Below are positions 51,495 through 60,106 of a stretch of DNA of 64,000 nucleotides, one piece after another (the first letter of the stretch is position 1; the number at the start of each line of letters is the position of its first letter). Both the position numbers and the translations under genes were made by a program. Origin of the DNA: Bacteroidota bacterium (GTDB lineage: Bacteria; Bacteroidota; Bacteroidia; Chitinophagales; Chitinophagaceae); contig JACPEA010000004.1 of assembly GCA_016183765.1 (NCBI GenBank), positions 38,533 through 102,532 on the forward strand, written 5' to 3'. The notes under the pieces were generated by a model that saw nothing but the letters and a program-made list of their open reading frames with translations, made no database searches and was not told the DNA's origin.

Positions 51495-52775
51495 TTACCT
51501 GATCTCATACAATTCTTCCCAACGTGTGGTATAGCGTGGGCTGCGCAGTTCCTGGCGCATCTTCCAGTTGCGGGTAGTGCCCGAAGCAGCAAACTTGAGT
51601 ACGTCATCACGCATGGCGAAGTTCACATTGTCGATCATGCTCATCAGCATGCGGTTCCTGTTGCCGGAGGGTTCATTAAAAAGGTTGCCTTGTATGGAAC
51701 TGTCGGGAACGATACCGCTTAACATGACCCCCGCTTTCTTATACACTTTGGTGTGATCGTATAACCGCTCTGCCAGCGATACGGCTGGTTTGATGAGTTC
51801 ATGCGTACAGGAAGTGGCCAGTGGCAGGATAATATGGCTGCTGATGGTGGGTCCGTGTCTGAAATGGGTGCTGTGCGTCTGCTCGCGCGGCACCACGAAT
51901 ACACTGATGGTATTGGCCGCGCTGTGTTGCCTGCGTAATTTTTCTGCAGCACGGGATGTGTAAGTGGCGATGGCTTCCTTGATGTCTTTCAGGTTGTTCA
52001 CCGGGCTGCCGAACATACGTGTGGTAGCGATCATTTTTTTGTTCACCAGTTCATCCAGCATATGTATGCTCTCGATGCCTTTGAGTTCGCGTACCAGTCT
52101 GGCGCCGGTTACCCCACCCAGGTGTTTGGTGGCCCAGTTGATGTCTTTGATGCTGAGGTCATATGCGTTATTGATATTGCTGTTGCGGAGTTTTACCGAG
52201 TATTGGTGTCCAATGCCCCATACCTCTTCAATGGGCGTTCGTTGCAGTGCCTGCTCGGTTTTCCGGGGGGTGTCGAGTACGAGTACGCAGTTGGTGACCT
52301 GTTTGTGTTTTTTGGCCAGGCGGTTGGCCACTTTGCTCAGCACTTTGGTGGGCGCCACACCGATGGATACCTGTATGCCCGTCCATTGCTCCACGGTCCT
52401 GCGCAGGTGCAGTGCAAATACCGGTAATTCTTCATTCGGTATATGCGAGAGATCGAGAAAACATTCGTCGACCGAGTATACTTCCACAGTATTCCGGGGA
52501 AGCTGCATGCGCAGGGTTTCCATTACGCGCCAGCTGAGGTCGCCGTAAAGATTGTAGTTGGAAGAAAAAGTGGCCACACCATATTTTTCTATCAGCGGTT
52601 TGGCTTTGAAATAAGGGCCGGCCATTTCAACACCCAATGCTTTGGCTTCATCACTTCGGGAGATGATGCAGCCGTCGTTGTTGCTGAGTACCACCACGGG
52701 CCGGTGCTGCAGGTCCGGCCTGAACAGGCGTTCGCAGGAGCAGTAAAAACTGTTGCAGTCGACGATGGCTTTCAT
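51495..52775 (-). CDS. umuC: DNA polymerase V catalytic subunit UmuC (Y-family)
   Basis: 426 residues. Translesion polymerase of the Y family. Metal ligands D6 (MKAIVDCNSFYCSCERLF) and D103/E104 (VYSVDECFLDLS), steric-gate region near SFYCSCE, and the Y-family helix-hairpin-helix after TPIEEVWGIGHQYSVKL. The little-finger domain follows (LVNKKMIATTRMFGSPV), as does the UmuC-specific C-terminus. It pairs with umuD upstream (137-bp gap). It is expected to be SOS-controlled; the gap carries a hairpin and a heptamer array. Confidence 0.95.
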   Translation of the reverse strand: MKAIVDCNSFYCSCERLFRPDLQHRPVVVLSNNDGCIISRSDEAKALGVEMAGPYFKAKPLIEKYGVATFSSNYNLYGDLSWRVMETLRMQLPRNTVEVYSVDECFLDLSHIPNEELPVFALHLRRTVEQWTGIQVSIGVAPTKVLSKVANRLAKKHKQVTNCVLVLDTPRKTEQALQRTPIEEVWGIGHQYSVKLRNSNINNAYDLSIKDINWATKHLGGVTGARLVRELKGIESIHMLDELVNKKMIATTRMFGSPVNNLKDIKEAIATYTSRAAEKLRRQHSAANTISVFVVPREQTHSTHFRHGPTISSHIILPLATSCTHELIKPAVSLAERLYDHTKVYKKAGVMLSGIVPDSSIQGNLFNEPSGNRNRMLMSMIDNVNFAMRDDVLKFAASGTTRNWKMRQELRSPRYTTRWEELYEIR

Positions 52776-52912: not shown

Positions 52913-53344
52913 TCAAATGGTTCTGATAGAATGTACAACCACGCCCCATACTGCGTAACTGCTGAACTCATCCACCTGAATATTGCCGTATTTTTTGTTT
53001 TCGGCCGCCAGTGTGGCGCCTTTGATCTGTACCTGTAAACGCCGCACCAGTAGCTCGCCATTGAGTATGGCCACGATGATCTTCCCGTTCACCGCCTTGA
53101 TGCTCCGGTCAACGATCAGCACATCACCGCTGAAGATGCCGGCATCTGTCATGGCATCGCTGTTCATGCGGAAGAAAAAAGTGGCCGGTTTGTTGCGGAT
53201 CAGCTGTTCGTTCAGGTCAATGCCGCGTTCCATATAATCATCGGCCGCGGCACCAAAACCGGTGGCGTTGGCAGTGGGGATGTTCCACTGATTGAATTTC
53301 TTGGAGCCCTTGTAGGCGGCTCCGTACCATGTTTCCCCGTCCAT
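52913..53344 (-). CDS. umuD: UmuD-like S24 peptidase subunit with substituted catalytic lysine
   Basis: 143 residues. Partner of UmuC in error-prone repair. The family start is recognisable (ATGFGAAADDYMERGIDLN equals the E. coli segment before and after its cleavage site), and Ser62 (MNSDAMTDAG) matches catalytic Ser60. The usual lysine of the Ser/Lys dyad (E. coli K97, VKKLQ) is arginine here: codons for VRRLQ, R101. The cleavage dipeptide is Thr-Gly rather than Cys-Gly or Ala-Gly. Self-cleavage may therefore be lost or altered. The short 5' leader and the palindrome at 53365-53377 point to tight control. Confidence 0.9.
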   Translation of the reverse strand: MDGETWYGAAYKGSKKFNQWNIPTANATGFGAAADDYMERGIDLNEQLIRNKPATFFFRMNSDAMTDAGIFSGDVLIVDRSIKAVNGKIIVAILNGELLVRRLQVQIKGATLAAENKKYGNIQVDEFSSYAVWGVVVHSIRTI

Positions 53345-53412: not shown

Positions 53413-54009
53413 ATGTTTATGGAAACAGGGTTAGTAAGCAACCGGCCGTTCCACGCACCGGTGCAGCAATTTTTTGAGTACCTGCTGGTAGCCAAACCGG
53501 ATGCGGCAGTATATGATAAATTGATACAGGAGAAACAGCGGTTTACCCTGCAATACCATGCACCCATTGCCGAGAAAACAAAACCCCATATTACAGTGGC
53601 CAATTTCCTGGCAAGGGAAGAAATGGAGTCTACCATTATCCGCTGGATGCACCGCATCATCAGTAACCAGCAACGGTTCAGGGTAACGTTGGACAGGTAC
53701 TGCGGTTTTAAACCCCATACCATTTACGTAAGGGTGCAGGACCACCTGCCTTTTCAGCAACTGGCCAGGGAACTGAAAGTGGTTGACCAGTATGTGCGGG
53801 GATATGGTTGTCCTGAAATGCACCTGATCACAAGGCCGCATATGACCATTGCGAGGAGACTGTCCGCAAGCGTATACCAGCAGGCAGAGGCGGATTATGC
53901 GCAAAAGGATTTTCAGGCATCATTTGAAGTGAATGAGCTGGTGCTGCTGCGGAGGACACACCAGTTCGATGCCTGTAAACAGGTAAACGTGTTCGGTCTT
54001 CGGCCCTGA
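53413..54009 (+). CDS. 2H phosphoesterase family protein (2'-5' RNA ligase-like), copy 1
   Basis: 198 residues. Two HxT-type catalytic motifs: H59-I-T61 (TKPHITVANF) and H143-M-T145 (TRPHMTIARR), about 84 residues apart, as in the LigT/2H superfamily that handles 2'-5' linkages and cyclic phosphates in RNA and nucleotides. No signal peptide. It is divergent from umuD across a shared control region and followed after 111 bases by a second 2H gene of the same type. RNA substrate is inferred from the family. Confidence 0.85.
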   Translation: MFMETGLVSNRPFHAPVQQFFEYLLVAKPDAAVYDKLIQEKQRFTLQYHAPIAEKTKPHITVANFLAREEMESTIIRWMHRIISNQQRFRVTLDRYCGFKPHTIYVRVQDHLPFQQLARELKVVDQYVRGYGCPEMHLITRPHMTIARRLSASVYQQAEADYAQKDFQASFEVNELVLLRRTHQFDACKQVNVFGLRP

Positions 54010-54120: not shown

Positions 54121-54723
54121 ATGCGATCAGATATATTGATGAATTACGCCACTGCTGAATATATGCTGGTGATAGAGCCACCGGAAATCTTGCGTGACCA
54201 ACTGCAGGCTGTAAAGAAACATTTTGCAGACAGTTACGATTGTGCGGAGGCAGTCAAGGGTAGGCCACATATTACCCTGCTGCGTTTTCAGCAATTTGAA
54301 ATGATTGAAAAACGGGTCATACACCGTTTGCGGGTAGTATCGGAGGCGCATGCCTCGTTTCTGGTAGAGCTGGAGGATTTTAGCAGTTTTCCCACGCATA
54401 CCATCTGTTTTCGGGTCAGTACGCAGACGCAGACAGGGCAGTTGATCAAATCATTGCGAACGGTACAACACCTGTTAAAGATAGATAAGGAACGGAAACC
54501 GCATTTTATTACCGAACCACACGTTACGCTGGCCACCCAATTGCTGCCCTGGCAATATGAGAAAGGCTGGTTGGAAATGAGTCATACGCATTTCAGCGGG
54601 CGTTTCATGGCAGAACAGCTGGTACTGCTGCGCAGAAGAGAGGGAGAAACAAAGTATGAAACGGTGAAAAGGTTTGTGATGAAGAATGAGAAGACGCATA
54701 TGGTACAAGGCGCCTTGTTTTGA
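54121..54723 (+). CDS. 2H phosphoesterase family protein (2'-5' RNA ligase-like), copy 2
   Basis: 200 residues. HxT motifs at H50-I-T52 (GRPHITLLRF) and H134-V-T136 (TEPHVTLATQ), with the same spacing as the first copy, so the two are likely a tandem duplication that has diverged. It ends 22 bases before the radical SAM gene, suggesting one operon. Met7 is an alternative start. Confidence 0.83.
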   Translation: MRSDILMNYATAEYMLVIEPPEILRDQLQAVKKHFADSYDCAEAVKGRPHITLLRFQQFEMIEKRVIHRLRVVSEAHASFLVELEDFSSFPTHTICFRVSTQTQTGQLIKSLRTVQHLLKIDKERKPHFITEPHVTLATQLLPWQYEKGWLEMSHTHFSGRFMAEQLVLLRRREGETKYETVKRFVMKNEKTHMVQGALF

Positions 54724-54745: not shown

Positions 54746-55843
54746 ATGTATGGTGTAAAAAAGAGTCCAATGGAAGAAGAGCTGCCTAAAGAAAATACTT
54801 ATTTGAAAGGCCGCGGCGCCCAGTTTAATCCGAAGAACCGCTTTTTGAAAAATGAGAAGGTGCGGGAACAGGTGGAGAGTATTGATGACTGGACCGAGCC
54901 TAACCTGGCCACGGTTTACCTGGAAGATCATGCCAAAAGCATTGTGAACAAAGTGGAGAGTCCTGATGTGGGTATGTGGTACAGCATGAATCCCTACCAG
55001 GGATGTGAACATGGCTGTATCTATTGTTATGCCCGTAATGTACATGAATACTGGGGGTATAGTGCCGGCCTCGATTTTGAACGGAAGATCATTGTGAAGA
55101 AGAATGCGCCGGAACTACTGCGTAAATTTTTGATGAACAGGAATTGGGAATGTGTTCCTATCAGCCTGAGCGGCAATACCGATTGTTATCAGCCTGCAGA
55201 GAAAAGGTTCGAACTTACCAAACGCATGCTGGAAGTGTGCCATGAATTTAATCAGCCTGTAGGAATGATCACCAAAAATGCCGGTATCCTGCGTGATAAG
55301 GTCCTGTTACAGCAGATGGCAGAAAAGAAACTCGTAAGCGTACTGGTCAGTATCACGTCCTTTAATGAAGACCTGCGGCGGGTGATGGAACCCCGTACCA
55401 CGACGGCGCAGCAGCGTTTGCGTGTGATCAGGGAGTTAAGTGATGCCGGCGTACGAACCGGCGTGATGCTGGGCCCGATGATACCCGGACTGAACGAGCA
55501 TGAAATGCAACGTATCATGGAAGCAGCCAGTAAGAATGGGGCGGTGTTTAGTGCGTATACCTTTATCCGGTTAAATGGAGCCATCAAACTGATCTTTCAC
55601 GACTGGCTGTACAAGAATTTTCCCGACAGGGCCGATAAGGTATGGAACCTGATACAGCATGGCCATGGTGGTAAGGTGAATGACAGTCGTTATGGTGTAC
55701 GCATGCGTGGCGAAGGGCCGATCTCCGACCTGGTGGCACAGCAATTTAAAAAATACAATAAACTCTATGGCCTCAATGCAGAGCGTTGGGAACTGGATTG
55801 CAGTAAGTTCAGAAGGCCGGGCGAGCAGGGTAAGTTGTTTTGA
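54746..55843 (+). CDS. PA0069-family radical SAM protein (SplB-related)
   Basis: About 365 residues. Radical SAM 4Fe-4S motif CX3CX2C in GCEHGCIYCYARN, preceded by MWYSMNPYQ. The N-terminal KGRGAQFNPKNRF lead and the later RVMEPRTTTAQQRL and RYGVRMRGEG stretches match the PA0069 family, relatives of spore photoproduct lyase (SplB) with unproven function. A role in nucleic-acid repair or modification is thus a fair guess, supported by the umuDC and 2H neighbours. ATG at 54746 or 54770 are both possible starts. Confidence 0.85.
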   Translation: MYGVKKSPMEEELPKENTYLKGRGAQFNPKNRFLKNEKVREQVESIDDWTEPNLATVYLEDHAKSIVNKVESPDVGMWYSMNPYQGCEHGCIYCYARNVHEYWGYSAGLDFERKIIVKKNAPELLRKFLMNRNWECVPISLSGNTDCYQPAEKRFELTKRMLEVCHEFNQPVGMITKNAGILRDKVLLQQMAEKKLVSVLVSITSFNEDLRRVMEPRTTTAQQRLRVIRELSDAGVRTGVMLGPMIPGLNEHEMQRIMEAASKNGAVFSAYTFIRLNGAIKLIFHDWLYKNFPDRADKVWNLIQHGHGGKVNDSRYGVRMRGEGPISDLVAQQFKKYNKLYGLNAERWELDCSKFRRPGEQGKLF

Positions 55844-55911
55844 GAGAGAATTTGTATATTGTATTTCCTCCCGCTGAATATAATAGACTTCGCTCGATTA
55901 AAAATCTATTT

Positions 55912-57027
55912 ATGGCACGTAAAGACTTGCACGAAAAGCCGTTTGATGAAACGACAATTGCAAAATTGGAGGTATTTGAAGATTATGCTCAAGCATGGAT
56001 TCCAACTTTTGTAATGAGTGGGATAAGTAATACAATCTGCATTTTTGATTTCTTTGCGGGGACAGGGTACGATAAAAATTCGGTCGAAGGAAGCCCAATA
56101 CGAATTCTAAATAAAATCAAACAACAAATTGGGAATATCTTTCAAAAAGGAATAAAGGTTAAAGTATATCTAAATGAATGGGAGCCACAGAAAAAAGAGC
56201 AAGAAAAATTTGACCTTTTAAAAACGGCCTGCCTTGATTATTTGAAACAAAATAATGATGTAAAACGAGCAATTGAGTTAGAATTTTACAATGAAGACTT
56301 CGAAGACTTATTCCCCAAAGTTTTGCCAATTATTCAACAGTATCCTAGCCTCGTTTACTTTGATCAAAATGGAATTAAATTTTTGTCGGAAAAGTATTTT
56401 TTAGAATTAGAGAAAACAAAGCAAACTGACTTTCTTTATTTTGTTTCAGCATCTTATTTTTGGCGATTTGGAGAAAGCAAAGAATTCAAGGTTCATTTAG
56501 ATATTGACATGGCAGCTGCCAAAAAAGACCCATATAGGTTTATTCATAGAAATATAATCGAACAGCTAAGACAAAAACTGCCGTCTAATTCTAAGTTGAA
56601 ACTATATCCTTTTTCCCTCAAAAAGGGGCCAAATATTCACGGAATTATCTTCGGTGCATCACACCCAAGAGCTGTAGATAAGTTTTTGTCAATTGCATGG
56701 AAAAGAAATGAAACAAATGGAGAAGCTAATTTTGATATAGATGAGGACAATAAAAAAACTCAACTGACAATATTTGAAGGGAAAAGGTTGACAAAAGTGG
56801 AAGATTTTAAAGATAGGGTTCGAAGAAAAATATTGGCAAACGAAATAAGAAACAATTTTGACCTGCTAAATTTCGTTTATGATGAAGGTCATGTTGGGAA
56901 TCATGCTTCAGAGTGTTTGAGGGAAATGAAAAAGAATAAAGAGATAAATTTTGATGGTAATTCTCCATTAGTTACTTATGACAATGTTTATAAAATCAAG
57001 AAAAAAATCGAATATAAAATTTTATAA
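55912..57027 (+). CDS. tcmP: TcmP-like three-Cys-motif partner protein (methyltransferase-like fold)
   Basis: 371 residues from ATG 55912; the in-frame TTG at 55840 overlaps the upstream stop and gives an unrelated lead. The protein belongs to the three-Cys-motif partner (TcmP) family, always found beside a Gp37/Gp68 protein, as here (2-base gap). Residues 44-52 (IFDFFAGTG) look like methyltransferase motif I; LNEW at 87-90 supplies the acidic residue of motif II; VYFDQNG at 148-154 stands where family members have DP-type motif IV, here DQ. The region is much more AT-rich than its neighbours, which suggests acquisition. A SAM-dependent modification of nucleic acid is a hypothesis only. Confidence 0.8.
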
Positions 57028-57029
57028 TA

Positions 57030-57761
57030 ATGGCACAATCAAGCATTGAATGGACAGAAATGACCTGGAACCCAACCACAGGTTGCAATAAAATTTCTGC
57101 AGGCTGTAAATTCTGTTACGCAGAGGTAATGTCTAAGCGTTTACAAGCGATGGGGATTGATAAATATAAGGATGGGTTTGAATTGAGAACTCATGAGGAT
57201 GCTTTGGCAATTCCTTATTCTTGGAAATCGTCTAAGGTAGTTTTTGTTAATTCTATGAGTGATCTGTTTCATAAAGATGTACCGTTGGATTTCATTCAAA
57301 AAGTATTCAAAGTAATGAATGGGAATCCACAGCATACTTTTCAGGTGCTTACAAAACGGGCAGATATTCTGTTTAAATATCACAAACAACTGAACTGGAC
57401 ACATAATATCTGGATGGGGGTTTCTGTGGAAGATTCTAGGGTCACGAAAAGAATAGATTACCTGCGAAAGACGGGTGCAAAGGTGAAATTTCTTTCCTGT
57501 GAGCCATTAATTGGTCCATTATCTGATATAAACCTTACGAATATCGATTGGGTGATTGTTGGAGGAGAAAGTGGTCGAAAGCCGAGGCCTATGGATGTAG
57601 ACTGGGTATTGGATATTCAGCAACAATGTGAAAAAGCGAAGGTCGCTTTCTTCTTTAAGCAGTGGGGAGGCGTTAATAAAAAGAAAACGGGTCGTGAATT
57701 GAAGGGCAGAACTTATGATGAAATGCCGGAAATCGTTCACGGAGTTGAAATGGCTTATTAA
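57030..57761 (+). CDS. Gp37/Gp68 (DUF5131) three-Cys-motif radical-SAM-like protein
   Basis: 243 residues. The opening [19 protein letters not shown] is the family hallmark. Cysteines C19, C26 and C29 (CX6CX2C) form the three-Cys motif thought to hold an Fe-S cluster in a divergent radical SAM domain. Later conserved parts: [40 protein letters not shown] and [19 protein letters not shown]. It is found on phages and mobile islands. It follows tcmP with a 2-base gap, so the two act together. The start of the island's AT bias and this gene's end coincide with the borders of the pair. Confidence 0.88.
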
Positions 57762-57802
57762 CTTCCTCAAATTTCAGTTAGCAATCTTCTTACCTTCGGG
57801 TC

Positions 57803-58492
57803 ATGAAAACAATCGGCCTTATTGGTGGGGTTACCTGGTTATCTACTGCTGAATATTATCGCATACTGAATGAGTTGGTGAATGCCAGGGAAGGAGGTGT
57901 GAGCTCTGCCCGTATCATTATCTATTCTGTCAATTTCCAGGAGATCAAAACACTGACAGAGGCCGGTGATTGGGACCGTATTGCCGGAATCATGTGCGAT
58001 GCGGCCCGCCGCCTGGAAAGGGCCGGGGCCGATTGCATACTGCTGGGTGCCAATACCATGCATAAGGTAGCGGATGCGGTGCAGGAAGCGGTGTCTATTC
58101 CGCTGATACATGTGGCCGTGGTTACAGCCAATGCGATCAAACAGCAAAATATAGCTACGGTTGCGCTGTTGGGCACCAAATATGTGATGCAGCAGGAGTT
58201 TTACCGGCAAAAACTGGAAGAGCAGGGCTTGCGGGTATTGATCCCCACGCAGGAGGGAATTGATTATATCAACAACGCTATCTATACGGAATTTGCCAAA
58301 GGTGTTTTTACCGCCGAAGCCAAACAGCATTTCCTGCAAATTATTGATACCCTGGTGACACAGGGAGCATCGGGTGTCATTTTCGGCTGTACGGAAATCC
58401 CCATTTTGTTGAAACAGGAAGATTGCAGTGTTCCTGTGTTTGATACCACTTTACTGCACGCAACAGCCGCAGTTGATTTTGTGTTGTCGTGA
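57803..58492 (+). CDS. Aspartate/glutamate racemase-family protein
   Basis: 229 residues. Typical start MKTIGLIGGVTWLSTAEYYR. The second catalytic cysteine is present (C196, GCTEIPIL). The first is not: the usual CNT is ANT (A83-N84-T85, GANTMHK), as Thr or other residues occur in YgeA-like broad-range racemases. Activity may be reduced, or directed to other substrates. Base composition returns to the local average. It is transcribed with the same direction as the Gp37/Gp68 gene after 41 bases. Confidence 0.85.
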   Translation: MKTIGLIGGVTWLSTAEYYRILNELVNAREGGVSSARIIIYSVNFQEIKTLTEAGDWDRIAGIMCDAARRLERAGADCILLGANTMHKVADAVQEAVSIPLIHVAVVTANAIKQQNIATVALLGTKYVMQQEFYRQKLEEQGLRVLIPTQEGIDYINNAIYTEFAKGVFTAEAKQHFLQIIDTLVTQGASGVIFGCTEIPILLKQEDCSVPVFDTTLLHATAAVDFVLS

Positions 58493-58648: not shown

Positions 58649-60106
58649 ATGGAGGCAGTGATCAAAGCCATCGGCGAACTTTTTGTGTCATCCGGTCATC
58701 CCCGGCCCGACCGTATTGAGAAATTACCGCAGAGCGGGAGTGACCGGGTGTATTTCAGGATATACGCCGGTAATGAAACTTTTATCGCCACCTATAACCT
58801 GAACCAGCGGGAGACCCAGACATTCATCTATTTCAGCCGCCATTTTAAACAGGTCTGTTTGCCTGTTCCCAAAATACTGGCTGTGAATGCAGAGGATACG
58901 ATCTACATACAGGAGGACCTGGGCACAGAATCCCTGTTGAATAAACTGGAGCAGAACGGGCATGGGGATTATGTGTATGGATTGTTTCAGCAGAGCCTGT
59001 CTGAACTGGCACGCGTGCAGATCCTGGGCGACCAGGGGTTGAACTATGAGTGGTGCCTTACTGCCAAAGAGTTTGGTAAACAGGCCATCATGAGTGACCT
59101 GTTGTATTTCAAGTATTATTTCCTGGACACATTACAGCTGCCCTATGATAAACAGGCCATGCTCGATGATTTCGATGCCTTGAGTACCTATCTTACACGT
59201 ACGGAGAACAAATATTTTATGTTCCGCGATTTTCAGAGTCGGAATATAATTGTGAAAGAAGATAAAGTGAGCTTTATCGACTACCAGGGGGGGATGAAAG
59301 GTGCGCTGCAATACGATGTGGCATCTCTGCTCTGGCAGGCCAAAGCGGAACTGAGCGAACAATGGAAAGATTCACTGCTTGATTATTACATGGACGAAGT
59401 GGATAAACTCCTGCAAAAACCGGTTGATCGCATCACTTTTGTGAGCCAGTATAATGGTTATGTATTGATCCGTTTACTGCAGGTGATGGGCGCTTATGGT
59501 TTCCGCGGATTGTTTGAGCGGAAGGCACATTTCCTGGCCAGCATACCGTTGGCATTGCGCAACCTGAAATTTTTTATCGAACATAAACGCATCGGTATCG
59601 TAACCCCGGAGTTCGACCGCGTACTGCGATTGGTGGTGGCCGAAGATATGATCAAGCGATTCGAACCCATCCAGGCGAACGAAAACACTCCGCTGCTGAT
59701 CGAGATCAACAGTTTCAGTTATAAAAAAGGAATTCCTGCTGATCCGACAGAAAATGGCGGTGGTTTTGTGTTTGATATGCGCGGTATCCTGAATCCGGGT
59801 CGTTTTGATGAATACAAAACCCAGACGGGGAAAGACAAGCCCGTTCAGGATTTCCTGGAGCAGCGTACGCATATGAACGAATTCCTGAACAGCGTTTGGG
59901 ACCTGATCGATATTACTGTGGCAGAATACCTGCGCCGGGGATTCAGTCATCTGATGATCAACTTTGGTTGCACCGGCGGACAACACCGCAGTGTGTATGC
60001 TGCGGAGCAAACAGCCCGCCACCTGCGTAACAAATACAAGGTAAAAGTAAAACTGGAGCACACCAATCAGGCGAACTGGGTAAAGGACTTGCCTGCTTCC
60101 AGCTAA
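58649..60106 (+). CDS. AmgK-like amino-sugar kinase fused to a RapZ C-terminal domain
   Basis: 485 residues in two parts. Residues 1 to about 330 are an aminoglycoside/choline-kinase-type fold closest in pattern to AmgK (MurNAc/GlcNAc 1-kinase): YFMFRDFQSRNIIV with catalytic Asp, then FIDYQGGMKGALQYDVASLL with the DYQ metal site. From about 348 the sequence is a RapZ C-terminal domain: SYKKGIPADP, FVFDMRGILNPG and NFGCTGGQHRSVYAAE (GCTGG at 440-444). In E. coli this domain binds GlcN6P and small RNAs; RapZ's N-terminal P-loop domain is absent here. The kinase may thus be tuned by amino-sugar levels. It lies 33 bases upstream of a MurU-like gene. Confidence 0.87.
   Translation: MEAVIKAIGELFVSSGHPRPDRIEKLPQSGSDRVYFRIYAGNETFIATYNLNQRETQTFIYFSRHFKQVCLPVPKILAVNAEDTIYIQEDLGTESLLNKLEQNGHGDYVYGLFQQSLSELARVQILGDQGLNYEWCLTAKEFGKQAIMSDLLYFKYYFLDTLQLPYDKQAMLDDFDALSTYLTRTENKYFMFRDFQSRNIIVKEDKVSFIDYQGGMKGALQYDVASLLWQAKAELSEQWKDSLLDYYMDEVDKLLQKPVDRITFVSQYNGYVLIRLLQVMGAYGFRGLFERKAHFLASIPLALRNLKFFIEHKRIGIVTPEFDRVLRLVVAEDMIKRFEPIQANENTPLLIEINSFSYKKGIPADPTENGGGFVFDMRGILNPGRFDEYKTQTGKDKPVQDFLEQRTHMNEFLNSVWDLIDITVAEYLRRGFSHLMINFGCTGGQHRSVYAAEQTARHLRNKYKVKVKLEHTNQANWVKDLPASS

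Follow-up and report, generated by a model that had tools for sequence, protein, structure and literature searches.

A horizontally placed TcmP-DUF5131 gene pair behind a radical-SAM gene in the Chitinophagaceae, with TcmP exchanged whole between conserved neighbours

We have analyzed a 64,000-nucleotide stretch of DNA from a Bacteroidota bacterium of the family Chitinophagaceae (contig JACPEA010000004.1 of assembly GCA_016183765.1), which we call the window, and a pair of genes within it, TcmP and DUF5131 (Gp37/Gp68), both on the forward strand. TcmP (55912..57027, with its ATG at 55912) encodes 371 aa comprising a predicted methyltransferase-fold domain and a C-terminal winged helix, and DUF5131 (57030..57761) encodes 243 aa, predicted to be a small radical S-adenosylmethionine (SAM) enzyme. 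The TcmP stop lies at 57027 and the DUF5131 start at 57030, leaving an intergenic gap of 2 bp, just as a first-pass annotation of this DNA had it. Upstream on the same strand lies a resident and conserved radical-SAM gene of the PA0069 family (54770..55843), which matches NF033668 over 54770-55840 with 474 bits (cut-off 360) and carries CX3CX2C, the usual cysteine motif of radical-SAM proteins. Downstream, outside the unit, is an aspartate/glutamate racemase-like gene (57803..58492, forward strand; TIGR00035, 225.5 bits). The stretch between these two neighbors (55845..57790, 1,946 bp) holds TcmP and DUF5131 and no other long open reading frame (ORF) on the same strand.

TcmP and DUF5131 form a horizontally placed two-gene island, inserted exactly behind PA0069. 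In the sister genome G063 the same locus is found without the insert; its PA0069 is 97% identical at the protein level, and the racemase gene follows it directly. The blastn blocks shared by the window and G063 end at 55844 and restart at 57791, so that the distance between the common anchors is 32 bp in G063 and 1,946 bp in the window. The insert also stands out in base composition. Four 500-bp segments from 56000 to 57249 have a GC fraction of 0.314-0.326, compared with 0.44-0.54 in segments clear of the unit, and 55845-57791 as a whole (1,947 bp) has 34.8% GC compared with 47.5% across the window. When a frame of 1,947 bp was moved across the window in steps of 50, the twelve stretches lowest in GC all overlapped 55845-57791. 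GC at third codon positions (GC3) is 0.28 for TcmP and 0.37 for DUF5131, and 0.53-0.65 for seven neighboring genes. The first-pass annotation had inferred an island from a sharp fall in GC; the sliding GC and GC3 values bear out that fall, and comparison of the locus across relatives bears out the island, since the pair is not present at this site in all of them.

No repeat was found at the two ends of the insert; the repeat pairs detected (five direct, seven inverted, 12-25 nt) do not bracket it. We have rejected a larger mobile element, as the insert consists of two genes without a further long same-strand ORF or flanking repeat. A prophage origin was also rejected, because a search of 50,697 phage records did not find the window's type of TcmP; a pattern-limited scan of viral contigs gave 141 pattern stretches and no relative of this type.

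The unit is sporadic: DUF5131 occurs in only 6 of 147 genomes belonging to the genus, and across the family in 69 of 394 (62 of the 331 of good quality), the window's own genome included in each case. Three of the six genomes in the genus hold distant copies (34-37% identity). Pairing is nearly invariant when viewed from TcmP. Of 80 GTDB loci that carry TcmP of the window's type, 79 have DUF5131 directly after it, and in the remaining one the contig ends within TcmP. It was stated in the first-pass annotation that the two families always pair. This stands from the side of TcmP and fails from that of DUF5131: genome G037 has a close DUF5131 (76%) and no TcmP match by four queries. In G037 both the first LigT-like gene (LigT1) and umuDC are present, and PA0069 was not found; a short ORF resembling a PBECR3 nuclease (PF18812, 40 bits; L083:2451-2720, reverse strand) lies there between LigT1 and DUF5131. 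The DUF5131 profile matched at least 8,000 proteins in one search, and DUF5131 is present in 159 phage records.

Within the family we examined 60 loci, consisting of 57 of the 79 DUF5131 places outside the window's own genome, two found by the genus search (L120 and L121) and the window. All 57 fetched places score at least 240 bits, and 22 weaker DUF5131 places were left out. Two pairs of loci (L004/L186 and L067/L181) have identical DUF5131 and are apparently the same contigs under other names. A census of neighboring genes covers 135 of 139 loci, with L219, L230, L236 and L041 having dropped out.

Comparison of these loci reveals that the order PA0069-TcmP-DUF5131 is repeated, with TcmP replaced between its two conserved neighbors. 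By single linkage at 33% identity and 60% coverage TcmP proteins divide into five types, that is type 0 (the window's, ~372 aa, with the sequence DQNG at motif IV), type 1 (~278 aa), type 2 (~385 aa), type 3 (~284 aa) and type 4 (~387 aa). Scanned members of each type score 104-152 bits against TIGR04474; the linkage being single, the farthest members of type 0 fall below 33% (28% for L181/L210). Four loci (L219, L223, L225 and L231) are untyped, their middle gene being broken, absent, split or not one ORF. Types 0, 1, 2 and 3 are all found behind PA0069. A tree of 21 PA0069-linked DUF5131 sequences has one split (support 100/99) into groups of 10 and 11, each of the four types is found in both, and there are 10 type changes across the tree. 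DUF5131 identity is 77.3% within TcmP types (40 pairs) and 77.2% between them (113 pairs).

The exchange is seen in L188 and L198, two loci from one genus. Their PA0069 proteins are 95.4% identical and their DUF5131 proteins 95%, whereas their TcmP proteins, of types 0 and 2, are 23% identical. DNA similarity ends no more than 10 bp from the PA0069 stop and restarts 19-20 bp before the DUF5131 start. The same pattern of breakpoints is observed between the window and L201, the window and L120, and L218 and L221. In control pairs of a single TcmP type (L185/L193 and L195/L204) the DNA aligns through TcmP. TcmP has thus been swapped whole between four or more widely divergent types, and the breakpoints fall no farther than ~20 bp from the ends of the gene. 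A recent recombination tract beside the swapped gene was rejected for L188/L198, as identity is flat over the flanking 900 and 700 bp; either the exchange is of some age or its tract cannot be seen. GC content falls in the order PA0069, DUF5131, stretch between them in 20 of 20 cases, a comparison in which any intrinsic AT-richness of such genes is uncontrolled.

PA0069 is a near-core gene of the family, present in 321 of 394 genomes and mostly in single copy. It lies directly upstream of the unit and on the same strand in 23 of the 60 family loci, whereas random placement of a gene that is mostly single copy would give ~0.02 cases by our own estimate. Simple chance adjacency is rejected by this recurrence, which strengthens the earlier suggestion that the join to PA0069 brings two radical enzymes into one setting. 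The 23 include L157 at a contig end, where PA0069 is visible only in its final 25 residues; in L187 a PA0069 relative is encoded ~2.5 kb upstream of DUF5131 but on the other strand, and this locus was not counted. On a tree of 69 DUF5131 sequences (26 adjacent to PA0069, 41 not and 2 unknown) adjacency changes 4 times, so that it is clustered yet not a single event.

Such clustering could suit a positional accident, in which the spot behind PA0069 would be no more than a permissive landing site, passed down in a few lineages of DUF5131 and without a functional tie. The small number of changes on the tree favors this, as do an insert that carries no further long gene and has no repeat marking its ends, and the variable gene content behind PA0069 in general. 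The genes next behind PA0069 were compared in 66 of 72 loci, a non-random set, clustered and unannotated, in which several genomes appear twice and six of the loci were already known to carry the unit. They form many sequence clusters, most of them found in one or a few loci. Against an accident, in that same set TcmP recurs with different types and the other next genes are scattered. In addition, PA0069 and DUF5131 identities are correlated when the genes are adjacent (r = 0.45, reached in 0 of 5,000 permutations, n = 20) and uncorrelated when they are apart (r = -0.17, p = 0.84, n = 10). This contrast is suggestive only, because there are just 10 non-adjacent genomes and, when the adjacent sets are reduced to the same size, the median r is 0.43 with a 5-95% range of 0.04-0.68. 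We regard the accident as quite possible, if on balance doubtful.

Several further observations concern the stretch behind PA0069. Two rows of the downstream comparison come from G381, with a further gene behind PA0069 that we labelled TcmP-like from its motif. In G473 a DUF5131 remnant (50 bits, covering the final quarter of the profile; C43:73102-73248) lies ~1.8 kb behind PA0069, and is possibly a decayed unit at the same site. In G441 (L223:344-477) 132 bp separate PA0069 from the start of DUF5131 and TcmP is missing, which would look like the loss of that one gene. Only 29 of 147 genomes of the genus have PA0069, compared with 321 of 394 in the family, and many of the listed non-carriers are smaller than 2.5 Mb. 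An ORF of ~147 aa is common to eight loci (L188, L209, L221, L004, L186, L201, L203 and L204, with L004 and L186 apparently one contig), and sits between umuC and umuD in the first three; from its sequence we take it to have the look of an IS200/REP-type transposase.

DUF5131 of the window matches PF07505 over the entire profile (1-243 of 243) with 332.6 bits (cut-off 28.9). Its three cysteines, C19, C26 and C29 (CX6CX2C, 57084..57116), had been picked out at first pass and do not vary in any of the 38 DUF5131 proteins aligned. In the structural model the cysteine loop, the predicted 4Fe-4S site, is placed between the strand at 16-18 and the helix at 30-40, and the top fold matches are spore photoproduct lyase (the closest), viperin, RlmN and lipoyl synthase. 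On the predicted fold, then, DUF5131 has a three-cysteine cluster loop in a radical-SAM barrel. It differs from spore photoproduct lyase (SplB) in its CX6CX2C spacing, in being ~100 residues shorter, and in usually lying beside TcmP, and it is not known to act on a photoproduct. Within a PA0069 gene of another genome (G479, C59:11750-12205) the DUF5131 profile gives a weak match (E = 2.5e-4), a hint of kinship at the level of sequence.

The window's TcmP matches TIGR04474 with 116.6 bits, above the cut-off of 53. Its predicted fold is that of a Rossmann methyltransferase, with RlmJ the best match and Trm1 lower, and both motif I and an acidic motif II are found in this setting. Motif I (DFFAGTG, residues 46-52, 56047..56067) is the predicted SAM-binding loop; D46, G50 and G52 and the acidic residue E/D89 are kept across the five types with one or two exceptions in 117 rows. 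Motif IV (DQNG, residues 151-154, 56362..56373) has D151 in 117 of 117 rows over the five types. The methyltransferase-like motifs recognized at first pass thus fit the predicted SAM-methyltransferase fold of the model. Amino-methyltransferases usually have D/N-P-P-Y or DPxG at motif IV. The proline after the aspartate is lacking from the window's TcmP, where it is Q152, and the remark that DQ stands in place of DP proves exact and defines a subfamily: the residue is Q in 83 of 83 TcmP proteins of the window's type, and P in 34 of 34 from the four other types. On account of Q152 we do not class the window's TcmP as an active N-methyltransferase. Compared with RlmJ (rRNA m6A2030) and Trm1 (tRNA m2,2G26), to which its identity is 9-13%, TcmP has in addition a C-terminal winged helix, DQNG for the DP motif, and a radical-SAM partner.

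Type 0 TcmP might accordingly be read as a non-catalytic adaptor, whose DQ motif and winged helix would deliver DUF5131 to a sequence or structure, leaving all the chemistry to the radical enzyme. The uniform Q152 of type 0 fits such a role, as does the winged helix, a GMT-like winged helix-turn-helix at residues 278-350 (56743..56961; PF22560, 42.1 bits, cut-off 27) that also exceeds the cut-off in the single type 4 protein tested and in one of the three from type 2. Yet the motif I glycines, E89 and D151 are all kept in type 0, which argues for a SAM pocket in use, and the two type 1 proteins and one type 3 protein scanned gave no winged-helix match. We consider a purely adaptor role distinctly unlikely. 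Sequence searches of the PDB with TcmP and DUF5131 returned only matches that we take to be due to chance or low complexity, among them matches to Clostridioides toxin repeats that span 41-42 residues, with E values of 0.0015 or worse.

The pair resembles two candidate defense systems in PADLOC. Neighboring genes of the window match both component profiles of PDC-M30, TcmP matching PDC-M30A (483 bits, 1.2e-145) and DUF5131 matching PDC-M30B (2.3e-130); DUF5131 scores 431-434 bits against the PDC-M30B and PDC-M41B profiles. The congener G029 has at this site a TcmP that scores 400 bits against PDC-M41A. PADLOC lists M30 and M41 as separate candidates, whereas here they are alleles of one slot between two radical-SAM genes, since the window's TcmP is M30A and that of G029 at the same site is M41A. 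No PADLOC profile matches PA0069. According to one study, PDC-M30 occurs in 32 strains of a 100-strain Pseudomonas aeruginosa panel, and 68.8% of these 32 were phage-resistant (PMC10855318). In another, a TcmP gene of Sinorhizobium meliloti is tabulated next to the phage-defense gene hna among NolR-affected genes (PMC12445080), and a table of a third also lists TcmP or PDC-M30 (PMC12429752).

With two radical-SAM genes in one locus, the arrangement is also reminiscent of the Radical SAM mobile pair A/B (TIGR04471/TIGR04470). The scores are far below the cut-offs, with DUF5131 at 86.2 bits against 355 for pair A and PA0069 at 88.3 bits against 410 for pair B, and here a TcmP gene separates the two. 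A true mobile pair was rejected, because 148 genomes of the phylum gave no above-cut-off match to pair A.

The closest parallel to the exchange is in type I restriction-modification (R-M), where HsdS is an exchangeable specificity subunit; in both, one module is replaced between conserved partners. The difference is that replacement here is of a whole gene, and that no restriction or Hsd gene stands beside the unit of the window. At five family loci (L181, L182, L192, L210 and L220), however, the TcmP-DUF5131 unit lies within type I R-M operons, with gaps that range from overlap to ~125 bp. The order is HsdR-TcmP-DUF5131-HsdS in four of them and HsdM-HsdS-TcmP-DUF5131-HsdR in L220; L078 and L029, outside the family, have a similar arrangement. 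The HsdR and HsdS labels are backed by neighbor scans (PADLOC and Pfam, 34 loci without PA0069, 122 proteins), with five members each. HsdM is a label assigned from the look of the sequence, backed in L182 and L220 by TIGR00497 matches below cut-off at those places. Of 117 family genomes, 77 have HsdM-like genes (26 above cut-off), and by our own estimate chance would bring them near the unit in well under one locus. The type swap is seen in this setting too: L181 (type 0) and L182 (type 1) are 65% identical in HsdR, 55% in HsdS, 81% in HsdM and 82% in DUF5131, and 24% in TcmP. Together with the two PADLOC candidates, these operons give substance to the proposal, made at first pass, that the pair operates in conflict with phage.

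Three phage stretches were read, and two of them have DUF5131 and a TcmP gene in tail-to-tail orientation. These are in Gordonia phage Jablanski (L117:3983-5852) and Synechococcus phage Ssp-JY39 (L118:4001-5619), where the gene ends overlap; bacterial loci are head to tail.

The resident locus into which the pair was inserted has a further character. Upstream of PA0069 are two genes for 2H phosphoesterases (LigT-like) on the forward strand (53413..54009, PF13563 66.3 bits; 54121..54723, PF13563 48.1 bits), syntenic in relatives. Divergent from the LigT-PA0069 genes, on the reverse strand, are genes for a UmuD-like SOS autoprotease (52913..53344; NF007621 132.7 bits, cut-off 110) and a UmuC-like translesion polymerase (51495..52775; PF00817 124 bits, PF11799 and PF13438). 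On the far side of the racemase gene, an APH-type kinase domain fused to a RapZ C-terminal domain is encoded at 58649-60106, and is also found downstream in several relatives.

The presence of umuDC and PA0069 here raises the possibility that the pair extends an SOS repair locus, in which TcmP would recognize damage, and PA0069 (SplB-like) and DUF5131 would deal with the damaged or alkylated bases by reversing or removing them. The fold of DUF5131 is closest to spore photoproduct lyase, and operons linked to the SOS response are reported to contain SplB-like radical-SAM photolyases (PMC3765255), matching the place of PA0069 beside umuDC. A sporadic, AT-rich unit with an allele-replaced middle gene would be unusual for repair enzymes. 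The unit is also found in type I R-M operons and is listed under two PADLOC defense candidates, and we think a repair function rather improbable.

We tentatively favor a different reading, while rating it somewhat below an even chance: the insert, together with PA0069, would be a module that modifies bases as a defense against phages. Its target is predicted to be selected by TcmP, and the radical enzymes would perform or complete the chemistry. From the models, TcmP would bind SAM through its Rossmann fold, like RlmJ (an rRNA adenine-N6 enzyme) and Trm1 (tRNA guanine-N2), and would position a base with the motif IV aspartate and the winged helix. DUF5131 would hold a 4Fe-4S cluster and use a 5'-deoxyadenosyl radical in a barrel like that of spore photoproduct lyase. 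TcmP might then methylate or flip a specific base, at which DUF5131 would make (or remove) a radical-derived modification that could either mark self DNA or RNA or disable that of an invader. PA0069 may contribute a related step or reverse one, and is a candidate partner or a mere landing site. By analogy with the specificity subunits of restriction systems, phage selection would drive the replacement of TcmP. In its most extended form this would be a tripartite immune system with two radical-SAM enzymes, retargeted by whole-gene replacement of a methyltransferase-fold subunit, and so a radical-chemistry counterpart of R-M with an exchangeable specificity subunit, acting alone or in type I R-M operons; we hold that form to be unlikely. 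The structural and evolutionary pattern is well supported, and the mechanism is plausible as far as the models go.

A number of observations weigh against such a module. PA0069 is dispensable for the TcmP-DUF5131 pair, because 37 of the 60 family loci lack it directly upstream, only three of them (L206, L213 and L236) being cut by a contig end, and because it adjoins just 3 of the 80 GTDB loci. In the genome of L206 (G381) PA0069 precedes a TcmP-like gene on another contig, which may be a further adjacent case and is uncounted. Most genomes with PA0069 have no TcmP-DUF5131 pair, and the wide range of the size-matched correlation given above counts on the same side. Type I R-M genes adjoin the unit in five of the 34 loci without PA0069, among the matches listed, which are the first 25 of 243 PADLOC families and of 85 Pfam families, other defense neighbors being uncounted. 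TcmP-DUF5131 pairs of another type occur in phages, which fits modification on the phage side as well as host defense. DUF5131 does not match the Pfam Radical_SAM profile PF04055, with PF07505 the only match at E values up to 0.001; PF04055 can miss divergent members, and for this reason we speak of a predicted radical-SAM fold and not of a canonical radical-SAM enzyme. Profile alignment of DUF5131 with PA0069 covers the 19-column cysteine loop only, with a probability of 63%. Foldseek E values are weak for both models, at best 2.8e-4 for TcmP and 1.4e-3 for DUF5131. The window's type of TcmP may bind rather than methylate, because Q replaces the motif IV proline throughout. Lastly, our literature searches on the pair returned listings of TcmP or PDC-M30 only, and no experiment, phage-protection test or function.

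These results give DUF5131 a logic of partnership, with a constant protein of predicted radical-SAM fold set beside a variable one of methyltransferase fold; one bacterial family adds to these another constant protein, also a radical-SAM one. Two PADLOC candidates merge into one system, and the natural chimeras L188 and L198 make the choice of target directly testable. If the anti-phage reading is true, radical chemistry on nucleic acids would enter bacterial immunity, linked to SOS and SplB-type repair.

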